From an uncultured Actinomycetes bacterium (lineage in GTDB: Bacteria > Actinomycetota > Acidimicrobiia > Acidimicrobiales > Microtrichaceae): 36,946 nucleotides of DNA. This document shows, piece by piece, positions 20,854 to 25,933 of the stretch; the first letter of the stretch is position 1, and the number at the start of each line of letters is the position of its first letter. Under the pieces are notes generated by a model, which saw nothing but the letters and a program-made list of their open reading frames with translations, ran no database searches and had not been told where the DNA came from. Location of the stretch: positions 1 to 36,946 of the forward strand of contig CAIQNH010000158.1 in NCBI GenBank assembly GCA_903873135.1, written 5' to 3'. The position numbers and the translations under genes were made by a program.

Positions 20854-20941
20854 GCCGCCACCCGCTGCGGTCACGAACCGAGTTCCCGGGCCGGGCGGGG
20901 CCGGGATGCCGCCGAGCACCGGGCGAGCCCACGCCTGAAAC

Positions 20942-20957
20942 CTCAAGATTTACTCAA
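20942..20957 (+). repeat. CTCAA direct repeat upstream of acyltransferase gene
   Basis: Two CTCAA copies (20942-20946 and 20953-20957) start 11 bp apart, one helical turn, in an unusually AT-rich patch 18-33 nt before the acyltransferase start. This could be an operator or part of a promoter. No standard -10/-35 pair was recognised. Confidence 0.3.
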
Positions 20958-20974
20958 TTGCCTCCTCACCCCTT

Positions 20975-21820
20975 GTGGTCGACGACGTGACGGTGTGGCC
21001 TGTTCGCCTGCCCGGTGCCGATGTGGCACCGCTGGGGGGGCGTGTCGCCGAGGTGGGACACGTGGCACTCCAACTCCGATCCGACCCCGACCGGTCCGGC
21101 ACCCCGCCGCCGACGGTCGACCTGACCGCTCCTCCGGGCCTCGTCGCGGCCCACGATCCCCGTCGCGACTTCGAGCCCGAACGACTCGAGACCGGCCTCC
21201 GGTTGCACTCGGTCGACCCGGGCTCGGCGCTCGGCGTGCTCGCCGAGGGGTTCGTCTACGACGTCTACCGGACCAGCGAGTTCTGCGCCGAGTCCCCGCG
21301 TCGCCACGTGGAGGAGAGCGAGCCCTGGCGGGCCGGGAGCACGCTGCACGTCGTCACCGACGACCAGGCGGCCGACCGGATCGTGGGCGTGGTGCGCACG
21401 ATCGTCGGGCCGTTCCCGACCCTCCCGACCGCCGCGCACGTCGACGGCGCGCCGGACCGCGACGGGCGGGTCTGCGAGATCGGCTCGCTCGCGGTGCACT
21501 CGAGCCAGCGAGGCCTGGGCGTCGCCAACGAACTCCACCGGGCGGCGTTCGTGGCCGGGTTCCGGGCCGGGGTCTCGGGCTTCTGCTTCCTCGTCGAGCA
21601 GTGGATGGTCGACTTCTTCACCGAGGTCTACGGGCTCCCGGTCCACCCCCTCGGTCCTCCACGCCACTACATGGGCGGCGACGTCGTCCCCGTCGCGATG
21701 TGGCTCCCCGAGATGCTCGACGTGATCGCCCTCGAGCGTCCGGCGGTGCACGCCTGGGCGGTCGAGGATCTGGAGGAAACCCTCCAGCAGCGGCTGCGAC
21801 TGCCGACGAGGACCGCGTGA
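20975..21820 (+). CDS. LuxI/FeeM-fold-like GNAT N-acyltransferase
   Basis: A 281-aa protein resembling the GNAT branch that includes LuxI autoinducer synthases, FeeM N-acyl amino acid synthases and exosortase-associated acyltransferases. Seen: GFVYDVYRTSEFC (about 90-102) like the YxVYxxE start of these enzymes; RIVGVVRTIVGPF where they have GxxRLL; CEIGSLAVHSSQRG (about 168-181) like the ExSRxAV strand; and a C-terminal YGLPVHPLGPPRHYMGG like their LGxPxxYxG end. If active it would transfer an acyl chain from acyl-ACP/CoA to an amine; substrate and product are unknown. The start is GTG at 20975; GTG at 20987 is possible. It overlaps the next gene by 4 nt. Confidence 0.6.
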   Translation: MVDDVTVWPVRLPGADVAPLGGRVAEVGHVALQLRSDPDRSGTPPPTVDLTAPPGLVAAHDPRRDFEPERLETGLRLHSVDPGSALGVLAEGFVYDVYRTSEFCAESPRRHVEESEPWRAGSTLHVVTDDQAADRIVGVVRTIVGPFPTLPTAAHVDGAPDRDGRVCEIGSLAVHSSQRGLGVANELHRAAFVAGFRAGVSGFCFLVEQWMVDFFTEVYGLPVHPLGPPRHYMGGDVVPVAMWLPEMLDVIALERPAVHAWAVEDLEETLQQRLRLPTRTA

Positions 21821-22296
21821 CCACCACGGCTCGACCCGCCCGGGTCCCCCACGACGACTCCTCGGACGCCGACCGACCCGGCTGGATCGGCGAGGTCCGT
21901 TCGCTCGGGCGGCTCGGCCGGTCCTGGGCCGTGGGCGTCGTGGTGTTCTCCGCAGCCCGGGCGCTGCTCGCCTGGCCCACGCTCGGGCGCTACGGCGTGG
22001 ACCCGTGGACCTTCCTCGCGATCGACCTCGTGACGGCTCCTCCCTACGGGGTCGCCCAGGCGGTCACGGTGAAGATCCTGTGCCGGACCGACCGGACGTG
22101 GCGGGACGCAGCGGGCTGGGCCGCCGTGGTCGTCGCCGCCTTCCTCGCGCCCTACGCGTACATCTTCGCCGCCTCCGGATCCCTGCCGACCGGGGCCGTC
22201 GTGGGCGTCCTCGTCTGGATGGTCGTGTTCGGGGCCGTCGCGCTCTGGCGCACCGTCCGGCAGGTCCGGGCGGGGCGCAGCGCAGCCACCGACTGA
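21817..22296 (+). CDS. Hypothetical small integral membrane protein
   Basis: A 159-aa protein I cannot assign. After a charged cytoplasmic-looking N-terminus (1-35) there are about four transmembrane segments: 38-57, 64-85, 95-117 and 121-143. A short Arg-rich tail follows. The second segment, FLAIDLVTAPPYGVAQ, carries a Asp and a Pro-Pro within the membrane, which may be functionally important. The start is GTG at 21817, overlapping the acyltransferase stop by 4 nt, so the two proteins are made together and may work together (membrane partner, exporter or receptor of the product are all speculative). Confidence 0.72.
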   Translation: MTTTARPARVPHDDSSDADRPGWIGEVRSLGRLGRSWAVGVVVFSAARALLAWPTLGRYGVDPWTFLAIDLVTAPPYGVAQAVTVKILCRTDRTWRDAAGWAAVVVAAFLAPYAYIFAASGSLPTGAVVGVLVWMVVFGAVALWRTVRQVRAGRSAATD

Positions 22297-22335
22297 GTGC
22301 CGTCCGGGGCCGCCGCGCCCGAACGGGTGGTTTTC

Positions 22336-22361
22336 CTCACATCCGCCGGGCAGCTGCCGAC
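22336..22361 (+). promoter_or_regulatory. Possible sigma-28 (FliA/WhiG)-type promoter
   Basis: CTCA (22336-22339) and GCCGAC (22356-22361) are 16 nt apart, the spacing of FliA/WhiG promoters, whose -10 core is GCCGATAA. The -35 departs from the canonical TAAA. It lies 33 nt before the GGDEF-EAL gene. This is weak evidence from pattern and context only. Confidence 0.25.
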
Positions 22362-22393
22362 GGGACCTCCGACGGCGGACCCGACCGGGTCCG

Positions 22394-25300
22394 ATGGACC
22401 GACGGAAGGTGACTGGGGCGCGACGTCGTCCTCTCGACATGGACCCACTGGCGTCGAGCTCCGACGCAGACCGAGGAACCGACCCCACCGAGGGTGGGCG
22501 ACGACGATTCCGACTGCTCGCCGCGCTCGGTGCCGCGGGCGTCGTCGCCGTCGGCCTCGCCCCGACGGTCGTCGCCGGACCCGCCTACCTCCTGCTCGGC
22601 ACCGCCACGCTCGTGGTGGCCGGCTCCCGCCTCCGCCACCTGGACCCGCCCATCCGTCGGGCGGCCACCTGGATGGTCCTCGCGGGAGCCTGCTCGCTGG
22701 GCGGCGCGCTGTTGCGGGGCGTCGAGTCGCTCCTCACCGGCGTCACGTACCCGTTCCCGAGCGTCGCCGACGCGCTCGCACTGGTCTCGTACCCGATGTT
22801 CGTCGTGGCCATGGCCCTGGTGGTGCGCGGCCGGATCGGTCGACCGGACGGTGACCTGCGGATCGACGCGCTCGTCGCCGCCATCGCCGTCGGGGTCCTC
22901 CAGTGGCAGGTCGTGCTCCTGCCGGCGCTCGAGCAGGGCTCCGGGACGTCGGCGGCGTTGGCGCTCAACGTGGTGTACGCCGGGCTGTCGATCCTGCTCG
23001 TCGCTGCCGCCATCGGCATCTCCCTGGCAGGTGGCCACCGCTCCACGAGCAACCGCCTGCTCGCTGCGAGCCTCACGGGCGTCGTCCTGCTCGACCTGAC
23101 CGCCACGCTCGTCACCACCGGCCAGATCCCGTCCCAGTGGCGGCTCGTGCCCGCCGCGGCGGTGTTCGTGCTCGGTGCCGCCGGCCTCGTGCACCCGAGC
23201 GTCTCGGGGCTCCTCGAGCGACCGTCGGGCCGGGCGCACCTGCGACGCCTCACCTACACGAGGATCGGCGTGCTCGGACTGGCCCTCGTGGTGCCACCAG
23301 CGCTGGTCGCCGTGGCGCTGCTCACCGACGACACGAGCTCCCTCTGGCTCCCCGTCGTCGGCTCCCTCCTCCTGGCCCCGCTGGTGGTCGTCCGGCTCGG
23401 TCGCCTCGTGCAGCGCAACGCGGTCGTCGCGGACATCGAGTCGGCGGTGCGAGCGGTGAGCGAGGACCTGGTGGGCGCCACGTCGGCCGAGGAGATCGCC
23501 GCCATCACCGAGCGGGGCGTGACGGCGGTGACGGGCTCCCCCGACACCCGCCCGGAGTTCGTGATGCTGGACGAGGTCGACGTCGGCCCCGGGGCGACGG
23601 ACCGAGCCCCGCACCCGGCCACCGCTCCCCTGGTCCGAGCCGCCGTGTCGGCCCGGCGACAGGCCGGCAGCCCGCCGGCGTCCGGCGAGCTCGTCGAACT
23701 CGGGGTCCCGGGCTGGGCGGCAGCCGTCGTCGTGGTGGACGGCCGGGTCCGGGGCGCCGCGCTCCTCCAACCCGGCCGGCTCGGCGTCGAGCAGGTCCAG
23801 GCCATCCAGACCGTGTGCCGGGACGCCGCCCTCGCCCTGCGGTCGATCGACCGGACCGAGCTCACGGTCCGGCGACGGTCCGAGGAACGGTTCGCCTCGC
23901 TCATCGACAACTCGTCCGACATCGTCGTCGTGCTCGACAGCGACCACCGCTCCGTCTACGTCTCCCCCGTCGCCACCCGACTGCTCGGGTACCCGATCGA
24001 CTACCTGACCGGACTCGACGTCCACGAGCTCGTCCACCCCTCGGACCTCGAGGTCCTGGCCGGGTTCGAGGCGTCGGTCGCCCAGGGCCGCCGGGTGAGC
24101 CACGAGGTGCGGCTCCGTCACGTCGCCGGCACCTACCACTGGTTCGAGATGGTCGGCACCGACCTCACCCACGATCCGAACGTGCGGGGCGTGGTGCTCA
24201 CCGCTCGTGAGATCGGGGACCGGAAGTCCGCCGAGGACCGCCTCGTGCTCTCGGAGGCCCGATTCAAGGCGCTGGTGCAGCACTCGAGCGACCTGGTCGT
24301 GGCCGTGCTCCCCGACGGCGTGCTCCGCTACGCCAGCCCGTCCGTGGGGGCCCTCACGGGTCGATCGCTGGACCAGCTCGCCGTGCTCGAACTCGACGAC
24401 CTCTTCCCCAACAGCGCCCTCGACTGGGACGAGGCCCTGCGCTCGACCGCGTCGGAACCCGGCTGCCTGCTCACCTACTGGTTCGACGACGTGACCGGCC
24501 GGCGACGGCACATCGAGGCCACCGTGCGGGACCTGCGCGCCGAGCCGTCCCTCGGCGCCTACGTGCTCAACGGTCGCGACGTCACCGAGCGGACCGCCAT
24601 GGTCGAGCGGCTCGAGTACCAGGCGACCCACGACGGCCTGACCGGACTCCCCAACCGGACGCACGCCTGCACGGTGCTCGGCACCATGCTCGACCGGAAC
24701 CCCGGGCGGAGCACGGTCGCCGTGGTCTCGATCGACCTCGACGACTTCAAGAGCATCAACGACAGCCTCGGTCACGCCGTCGGCGACCGTGTGCTCACGA
24801 CGATCGCCCAGCGGGTCGCCCGGGTCGCCGAGGAGGACGACGTCGCCGCCCGGAGCAGCGGCGACGAGTTCCTCCTCGTCGTCGAGCGGGCCCGGGGGGA
24901 GGACCGCGTGACCGAGCTGGCCGGGCGCCTGCTGGAGCTCGTCGGCCGCCCCGTCGAGATCGACGACCGCACCATCACCGTCACGGCCTCGGCTGGGATC
25001 GCCTACGACCACGACCGGAGCCACTCCGCAGAGGACCTCCTCCGCGCGGCGGACACGGCGATGTACCGGTCCAAGGCCGAGGGCAGGGGCTCCGGCCGCC
25101 ACCGCATCACGGCGTTCGAGCCGTCGATGCACGCCGACAGCATGACGCGCTTCGAGCTGCGGGCCGACCTGGCCGCAGCGCTCGCCACCGACCAGCTGGA
25201 CGCGCACTACCAACCCGTGGTCGATCTCTGCACCCAGCGCATCATCGGTCTCGAGGCCCTGGTCCGCTGGCACCACCCGACGCGCGGGAGCCTGAGCCCC

Positions 25301-25933
25301 GGCGTGTTCGTCCCCATCGCCGAGGAACACGGCCTGGTGCTCGAGCTCGGTCGGTGGATGCGTCGACGGGCGTGCCGTGACCTGGCGCACTGGCGTCGGA
25401 CCCAGCCGGAGACGGCGGCGCACCTCACGGTCGCGGTGAACGTGGCGGCCGCCGAGCTCCACGACGACGAGCTGGTCGGCTCCGTGGCGGACCTCCTGGA
25501 GGAGCACGGGCTGCCGTCGGACTGCCTGACGCTCGAGCTGACCGAGTCCTCGCTGCTCACCGAGACCGAGCTGGTCCGCTCACGCATGGAGGCGCTGCGC
25601 GGACTCGGCGTCCGGCTGGCGATCGACGACTTCGGGACCGGCTACTCCTCGCTCGGCTACATCCACCGCTACAGCTTCGACATCCTCAAGATCGACCGGT
25701 CGTTCGTGAGCGCCCTCGAGCACGCCACGAACCGTCAGATCATCACCTCGGTCACGGACCTCGCCGCCCAGCTCCAGGCGTCCGTCGTCGCCGAGGGCAT
25801 CGAGACCGTCGAACAGGAGGCGGTGCTCGCCCGGCTCGGGATCGAGCTCGGACAGGGCTTCCTCTACTCCCGCCCCGTGCCCGCCGAGGCGATCGGCCAC
25901 CTGCTCGGCGCCCAGCAGATCGACCTCACCTGA
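22394..25933 (+). CDS. Membrane PAS-PAS-GGDEF-EAL c-di-GMP signalling protein
   Basis: A 1179-aa sensor enzyme. About eight hydrophobic segments (roughly 40-335) form a membrane input domain I cannot name. A GAF-like region (350-490) and two PAS domains (about 496-612 and 618-735) follow. The GGDEF domain (about 770-925) keeps DLDDFKSINDSLGH but its signature is SGDEF (822-826), and the RxxD inhibitory site is absent. The EAL domain (about 935-1170) has EAL (954-956), LTESSLL, DDFGTGYSS (1078-1086), KIDRSF and AEGIET, so phosphodiesterase activity is likely; cyclase activity is uncertain. The start is ATG at 22394; in-frame GTG at 22409 or ATG at 22439 are alternatives, and no site has a strong ribosome-binding sequence. 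Confidence 0.93.
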   Translation: MDRRKVTGARRRPLDMDPLASSSDADRGTDPTEGGRRRFRLLAALGAAGVVAVGLAPTVVAGPAYLLLGTATLVVAGSRLRHLDPPIRRAATWMVLAGACSLGGALLRGVESLLTGVTYPFPSVADALALVSYPMFVVAMALVVRGRIGRPDGDLRIDALVAAIAVGVLQWQVVLLPALEQGSGTSAALALNVVYAGLSILLVAAAIGISLAGGHRSTSNRLLAASLTGVVLLDLTATLVTTGQIPSQWRLVPAAAVFVLGAAGLVHPSVSGLLERPSGRAHLRRLTYTRIGVLGLALVVPPALVAVALLTDDTSSLWLPVVGSLLLAPLVVVRLGRLVQRNAVVADIESAVRAVSEDLVGATSAEEIAAITERGVTAVTGSPDTRPEFVMLDEVDVGPGATDRAPHPATAPLVRAAVSARRQAGSPPASGELVELGVPGWAAAVVVVDGRVRGAALLQPGRLGVEQVQAIQTVCRDAALALRSIDRTELTVRRRSEERFASLIDNSSDIVVVLDSDHRSVYVSPVATRLLGYPIDYLTGLDVHELVHPSDLEVLAGFEASVAQGRRVSHEVRLRHVAGTYHWFEMVGTDLTHDPNVRGVVLTAREIGDRKSAEDRLVLSEARFKALVQHSSDLVVAVLPDGVLRYASPSVGALTGRSLDQLAVLELDDLFPNSALDWDEALRSTASEPGCLLTYWFDDVTGRRRHIEATVRDLRAEPSLGAYVLNGRDVTERTAMVERLEYQATHDGLTGLPNRTHACTVLGTMLDRNPGRSTVAVVSIDLDDFKSINDSLGHAVGDRVLTTIAQRVARVAEEDDVAARSSGDEFLLVVERARGEDRVTELAGRLLELVGRPVEIDDRTITVTASAGIAYDHDRSHSAEDLLRAADTAMYRSKAEGRGSGRHRITAFEPSMHADSMTRFELRADLAAALATDQLDAHYQPVVDLCTQRIIGLEALVRWHHPTRGSLSPGVFVPIAEEHGLVLELGRWMRRRACRDLAHWRRTQPETAAHLTVAVNVAAAELHDDELVGSVADLLEEHGLPSDCLTLELTESSLLTETELVRSRMEALRGLGVRLAIDDFGTGYSSLGYIHRYSFDILKIDRSFVSALEHATNRQIITSVTDLAAQLQASVVAEGIETVEQEAVLARLGIELGQGFLYSRPVPAEAIGHLLGAQQIDLT

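Follow-up and report, generated by a model that had tools for sequence, protein, structure and literature searches.

A FeeM-type acyltransferase gene linked to a membrane GGDEF-EAL gene across families of the Acidimicrobiales

FeeM-type enzymes are producers of N-acyl amino acids, and relatives of LuxI are usually tied to transcription factors. In Mycobacterium tuberculosis, tyrosine and phenylalanine are N-acylated by the enzyme TyzA (Rv2336), whose closest structural homologues were reported to be FeeM and BjaI and whose neighbours are ThiF and nitroreductase genes, with which an acyl-oxazolone is made (PMC10404671). The bifunctional membrane c-di-GMP enzyme MbaA of Vibrio cholerae is responsive to polyamines and works via a separate polyamine-binding protein, NspS (PMC8967002). 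At the locus described here the constant neighbour of an acyltransferase, in several families, is a c-di-GMP enzyme, and a cassette with an arginine decarboxylase can replace the acyltransferase. In the open-licence literature searched we found no description of a linkage of FeeM or N-acyl amino acid synthases with GGDEF proteins or c-di-GMP, nor of this type of arginine decarboxylase with GGDEF proteins, which is weak evidence of absence.

The three genes and their predicted products

The window, i.e. the whole stretch of 36,946 nt that was analysed, contains three plus-strand genes, flanked by hisG in divergent and ribH in convergent orientation. The first, AT (20975-21820, +; GTG start, 281 aa), encodes a predicted FeeM/LuxI-fold N-acyltransferase with a conserved domain from about residue 66. 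Its start codon is uncertain, as residues 1-60 are unconserved and of low confidence in the structural model. The second, MEM (21817-22296, +; GTG start, 159 aa), encodes a small four-helix membrane protein; its GTG shares the letters GTGA with the stop codon of AT, and the 4-nt overlap of the two genes is therefore real. The third, GE (22394-25933, +; ATG start, 1179 aa), encodes a membrane PAS-PAS-GGDEF-EAL protein and begins 97 nt downstream of MEM. The three-gene layout that an earlier sequence-only reading had proposed for 20975-25933 (+) is thereby borne out. In the spacer between MEM and GE a pattern scan marked a weak hairpin resembling a terminator (22316-22329, +), which may separate the transcription of GE from that of MEM. 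Rfam gave no RNA elements in the window, a scan for a sigma-70-type promoter was negative, and PADLOC identified no defence system.

AT matches the Pfam FeeM family (PF21926) with 32.7 bits, above the curated cut-off of 27, and the same profile matches 25 of 34 aligned members of the AT family at E ≤ 0.01. The AF2 model of AT is confident from about residue 62 onward, and its best solved structural match is FeeM (2g0b; Z 17.9 over 171 residues, 2.5 Å), at a sequence identity of about 14%. The AHL synthases LasI (Z 15.7), RpaI (15.4), TofI (15.1) and BjaI (15.1) all score below FeeM; a few generic acetyltransferases reach values similar to these, and protein N-acetyltransferases are found among the matches at Z 12-14. 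By this structural ranking AT falls, within the GNAT fold, into the branch of N-acyl amide and AHL synthases and lies closest to FeeM. The earlier claim of an acyltransferase fold is supported, as FeeM rather than LuxI. AT belongs to the LuxI-type fold by structural match (Z about 15) and not by Pfam: Autoind_synth (PF00765) is absent among its Pfam matches up to E 10, and a LuxI-type AHL synthase proper was rejected on this ground. Likewise rejected was the exosortase-associated acyltransferase (TIGR03694), against which AT scored 14.2 bits at a cut-off of 111.95. A search of the window genome for PF13444 was negative. As AT shares its FeeM/BjaI-like fold with TyzA, an N-acylating enzyme, our best guess by analogy is that its product would be an N-acyl amide.

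The model of MEM consists of four long helices and Pfam gave no convincing family, in agreement with the unknown four-helix membrane protein that had been read from the sequence. NCBIfam gave no match for the MEM of the window, and a fold search against the PDB returned nothing significant (best E 0.96). The Pfam family Rv2743c weakly matches 9 of 29 members of the MEM family (best E 0.0009); the MEM of one genome (G624) reached 16.2 bits against the PspM/Rv2743c model of NCBIfam, far from the curated cut-off of 80, and an assignment as PspM/Rv2743c was rejected on this ground. Relatives of MEM are also found alone in unrelated contexts (L047-L049, L051-L055), and some of them weakly match Pfam Rv2743c.

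In GE, Pfam recognises PAS, PAS, GGDEF and EAL domains, and the hydropathy profile indicates some nine hydrophobic stretches between residues 42 and 335, as expected for the large membrane protein described before. The positions of both catalytic domains are taken from Pfam and a motif comparison across relatives. The EAL domain (25163-25876, +; residues 924-1161, EAL at 954-956) has all motifs intact (EAL, N, ExTE, DDFGTG, KIDRSF, AEGIE and QG), and they are intact across the AT-linked GE proteins as well. The signature of the GGDEF domain (24623-25090, +; residues 744-899, SSGDEF at 821-826) is degenerate, reading SSGDEF or SNGDEF in the window GE and its two nearest relatives, while most GE relatives carry the canonical RxGGDEF; the window GE does not count as a canonical GGDEF protein. 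With an EAL half that looks active and a degenerate GGDEF half, GE is here probably mainly a c-di-GMP phosphodiesterase. The window genome contains 17 GGDEF/EAL matches, i.e. GE and 16 others. None of the 16 matches GE upstream of residue 478, while AT-linked GE proteins match it along the N-terminal membrane part too, and the AT-linked GE is therefore a specific type. Of 248 genomes, 54 have relatives of its N-terminal part. A tree of GE places most of the AT-linked proteins in two groups. As to further neighbours, a codirectional SpoU-type RNA methyltransferase gene lies 3' of GE in some relatives (L041:5509-6336, L064:13090-13890, L066:10309-11115, L104:4636-5472) and is absent from this position in the window. 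A second GGDEF-EAL gene was seen on the other side of AT in G002, G210 and a low-GC genus, representing two separate lineages (L042:10443-13352, L043:10619-13414, L109:7214-9367).

Linkage of AT and GE across genomes

In a first search, which covered 248 genomes of the order, 21 genomes had MEM and 12 had AT. A fuller search of two families, with more than 140 bits required for an AT orthologue, yielded 29 orthologues in 29 genomes, of which three were excluded for their position at a contig end. In all 26 assessable loci of the two families AT adjoins a GE orthologue, in varied surroundings and orientations. No GE is present near six lower-scoring proteins of the AT profile (73-97 bits; G167, G215, G002, G651, G646, G649). 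A further five FeeM-type genes, more distantly related and from four other families, do adjoin GE, two of them in the same genome (G024, with two loci, G057, G139 and G170). A random gene would be no more than two genes away from a GGDEF/EAL gene with a probability of about 2%, given 17 matches and an estimated genome of about 3,100 genes, and the adjacency of AT and GE is far above chance. The divergence of AT and that of GE run in parallel (Mantel r 0.84), of which shared ancestry alone could yield much. In a 55% complete genome (G634, L114) an in-frame stop lies inside the AT match and GE is fragmented, so both genes appear broken together.

The trio is located between hisG and ribH in the genus of the window and several more genera of the family, and within this family the constant setting means that synteny alone could explain the linkage. 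In the second family (G002, G210, G160, G185 and others) the trio is found in unrelated surroundings and with MEM inverted, which rules out housekeeping synteny at hisG-ribH as the cause of the adjacency. In two genomes (G019 and G628) AT and GE are divergently oriented. The sequence-only reading had linked the genes by adjacency and shared direction and had voiced doubt on this account; this doubt is removed, as the AT-GE linkage recurs across families and rearrangements, and the test of neighbourhood conservation that it had named was passed with AT and GE together in 26 of 26 loci and MEM kept beside both in 21.

As a module of three genes the locus stands in part: AT and GE are the constant pair, while MEM, missing from 5 of the 26 AT loci (G019, G617, G628, G647, G643), is not essential. 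In three of these five (G019, G617, G628) a different small protein of 160-180 aa, hydrophobic by reading, adjoins AT or GE. The loci without MEM, together with the MEM relatives among unrelated genes, rule out MEM as an obligatory partner of AT.

Exchange of AT for an arginine decarboxylase cassette

Twenty loci with relatives of the N-terminal part of GE were inspected, out of the 54 genomes bearing them, and most are without AT. In ten of the twenty a conserved pair lies beside GE, consisting of a protein X of about 180-217 aa and a predicted pyruvoyl-dependent arginine decarboxylase (PvlArgDC); an eleventh locus (G231) has PvlArgDC and a shorter X at this place. Three of the X-PvlArgDC loci also have a PrmA-related methyltransferase. 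Loci of the GE type with PvlArgDC and X were noted in other families of the order (L175-L179, L181, L183-L187) and at L219. The assignment of the enzyme as PvlArgDC is based on a score of 89.6 bits against Pfam PF01862 (cut-off 22.7), a match to 1n2m at 1.7e-12, and an alignment in which Ser59, the self-cleavage site, and Glu119 are invariant. An independent search of the 248 genomes of the order recovered 13 with PvlArgDC, each time adjoining a GGDEF-EAL gene; twelve of these GGDEF-EAL genes are of the GE type and one (G205) is shorter. Against PDB profiles protein X gave weak N-acetyltransferase matches only, so the label 'GNAT-like' for X is tentative. A relationship of X with AT was rejected, the profile comparison being not significant (probability 2%).

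Both synthase types also meet in single genomes. In G019 the PvlArgDC reading frame overlaps the AT reading frame next to GE (L046:9060-10338), an arrangement that hints at a route from arginine to agmatine and on to N-acyl agmatine, and in G617 PvlArgDC is found near AT, likewise beside GE. In G231 the GE that lies next to PvlArgDC branches, fully supported (SH-aLRT only), inside the group of AT-linked GE proteins of its family, and the downstream MgtE_N/CBS and DUF1003 genes of the AT-linked relatives are kept. By this tree position and the unchanged downstream genes G231 shows a cassette exchange beside one GE. The locus is thus better described with GE as the constant part and with exchangeable small-molecule synthases.

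Signalling and alternative readings compared with known systems

We read the locus as a conserved signalling cassette, and give this reading a probability of roughly 45%. GE would be its membrane-anchored constant enzyme and act mainly as a c-di-GMP phosphodiesterase; AT would transfer a fatty acyl group to an amine or amino acid and so form an N-acyl amide; MEM would assist, either by placing or handling the lipid-like product or by anchoring AT at the membrane; and the product of AT, or its precursor, may be sensed by the N-terminal membrane/PAS part of GE, with a change in c-di-GMP as the result. Most likely the product of AT is an amine or amino acid bearing an N-acyl group, which GE links to c-di-GMP; the identity of the product, its sensing by GE and the role of MEM are what we infer. 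PvlArgDC was not found in the window genome, and the acceptor of AT would here therefore not be agmatine from this enzyme. That AT can be swapped for an enzyme producing an amine suggests that an amine-derived small molecule is what counts for GE and what GE may respond to. That synthases are exchanged beside one GE also gives better support to the product as a signal and GE as its reader, which we continue to infer.

The order of events may be the reverse, with GE responding to some other cue and c-di-GMP switching the production of an N-acyl amide that serves as surface-active, membrane or matrix lipid; both genes, AT and PvlArgDC, would then be effectors rather than synthases of a signal. 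The linkage of AT or PvlArgDC with GE is equally expected if c-di-GMP governs lipid production, the PAS domains within GE are available for other cues, and N-acyl amino acids are known also as surfactants and modifiers of biofilm communities. Yet a Pfam scan recognised no c-di-GMP-binding domain in AT, and that a cassette making an amine can stand in for AT next to one and the same GE is easier to understand if GE senses the molecule, compatible as it is with an output role. We regard this reading as doubtful. As unlikely we regard a system of one receptor and many synthases, in which GE would read a self-made acylated amine and in which the FeeM-type AT, PvlArgDC with the GNAT-like protein, or both would have been exchanged in the course of evolution; GE would then be the receptor for a family of molecules derived from amines, N-acyl agmatine for example.

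Directly 5' of AT lies a tandem direct repeat of CTCAAG with an 11-bp period, CCTCAAGATTTACTCAATTGC (20941-20961, +), which is a candidate operator or promoter element. The pattern CTCAAG-N5-CTCAA has a single match in the window and 0 in shuffled sequences, and the element precedes AT not only in the window but also in five relatives, of which one is low in GC. In two genera (L251, L252) the repeat is also found 5' of a PAS-GAF-PAS-GGDEF gene, i.e. at a separate diguanylate cyclase operon. A genome-wide CTCAAG regulon was considered and rejected, since the totals are barely above the reversed-pattern control; the claim is therefore limited to conservation at orthologous positions and is a lead. 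In three genomes of the genus (L233, L241, L230) the repeat was further seen 5' of an operon of an unknown protein and an RDD-family protein.

The repeat common to AT and the separate diguanylate cyclase operon would fit with mere co-regulation, in which the amide lipid of AT is needed in the same phase of life as the c-di-GMP change, e.g. during surface attachment, without direct coupling. The variable orientation of AT and GE points the same way, but the linkage has outlasted both rearranged gene orders and exchanged partners in several families, more than co-regulation alone usually brings about, and we find this explanation improbable. Least probable is that AT acylates GE or MEM and thereby controls GE without release of a small molecule, for which the GNAT fold, the protein N-acetyltransferases among the structural matches and the constant AT-GE pairing can be cited, but FeeM and the AHL synthases outrank these acetyltransferases (Z 17.9 and about 15 versus 12-14) and PvlArgDC as the alternative partner speaks for a small amine.

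If GE senses the product, as in the signalling cassette that we prefer, a self-made lipid or amine signal would feed directly into c-di-GMP, in an actinobacterial group in which such signalling is little known. The position of AT or PvlArgDC beside GE in these aquatic actinobacteria suggests a new coupling of a home-made amine or acyl-amide to the control of bacterial lifestyle, and the loci offer a set of genes with which the ligand of an orphan membrane GGDEF-EAL protein could be sought.

Among the described systems AT shares both Pfam family (PF21926) and fold (2G0B) with the FeeM-type synthases. Its partners are MEM and a c-di-GMP enzyme, whereas TyzA is accompanied by ThiF and a nitroreductase. 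With the LuxI-type AHL synthases (LasI, BjaI, TofI, RpaI) AT has the overall fold in common (Z about 15); it differs from them by the absent Autoind_synth match and by its constant partner, a GGDEF-EAL enzyme. The exosortase-associated LuxI-like acyltransferase (TIGR03694) shows a distant GNAT/LuxI-like likeness, with a score far below the cut-off. GE and MbaA are both membrane c-di-GMP enzymes tied to amines, GE by adjoining an arginine decarboxylase in related loci. While MbaA works with the binding protein NspS, no NspS-like protein was identified beside GE, and the neighbours of GE are synthases.
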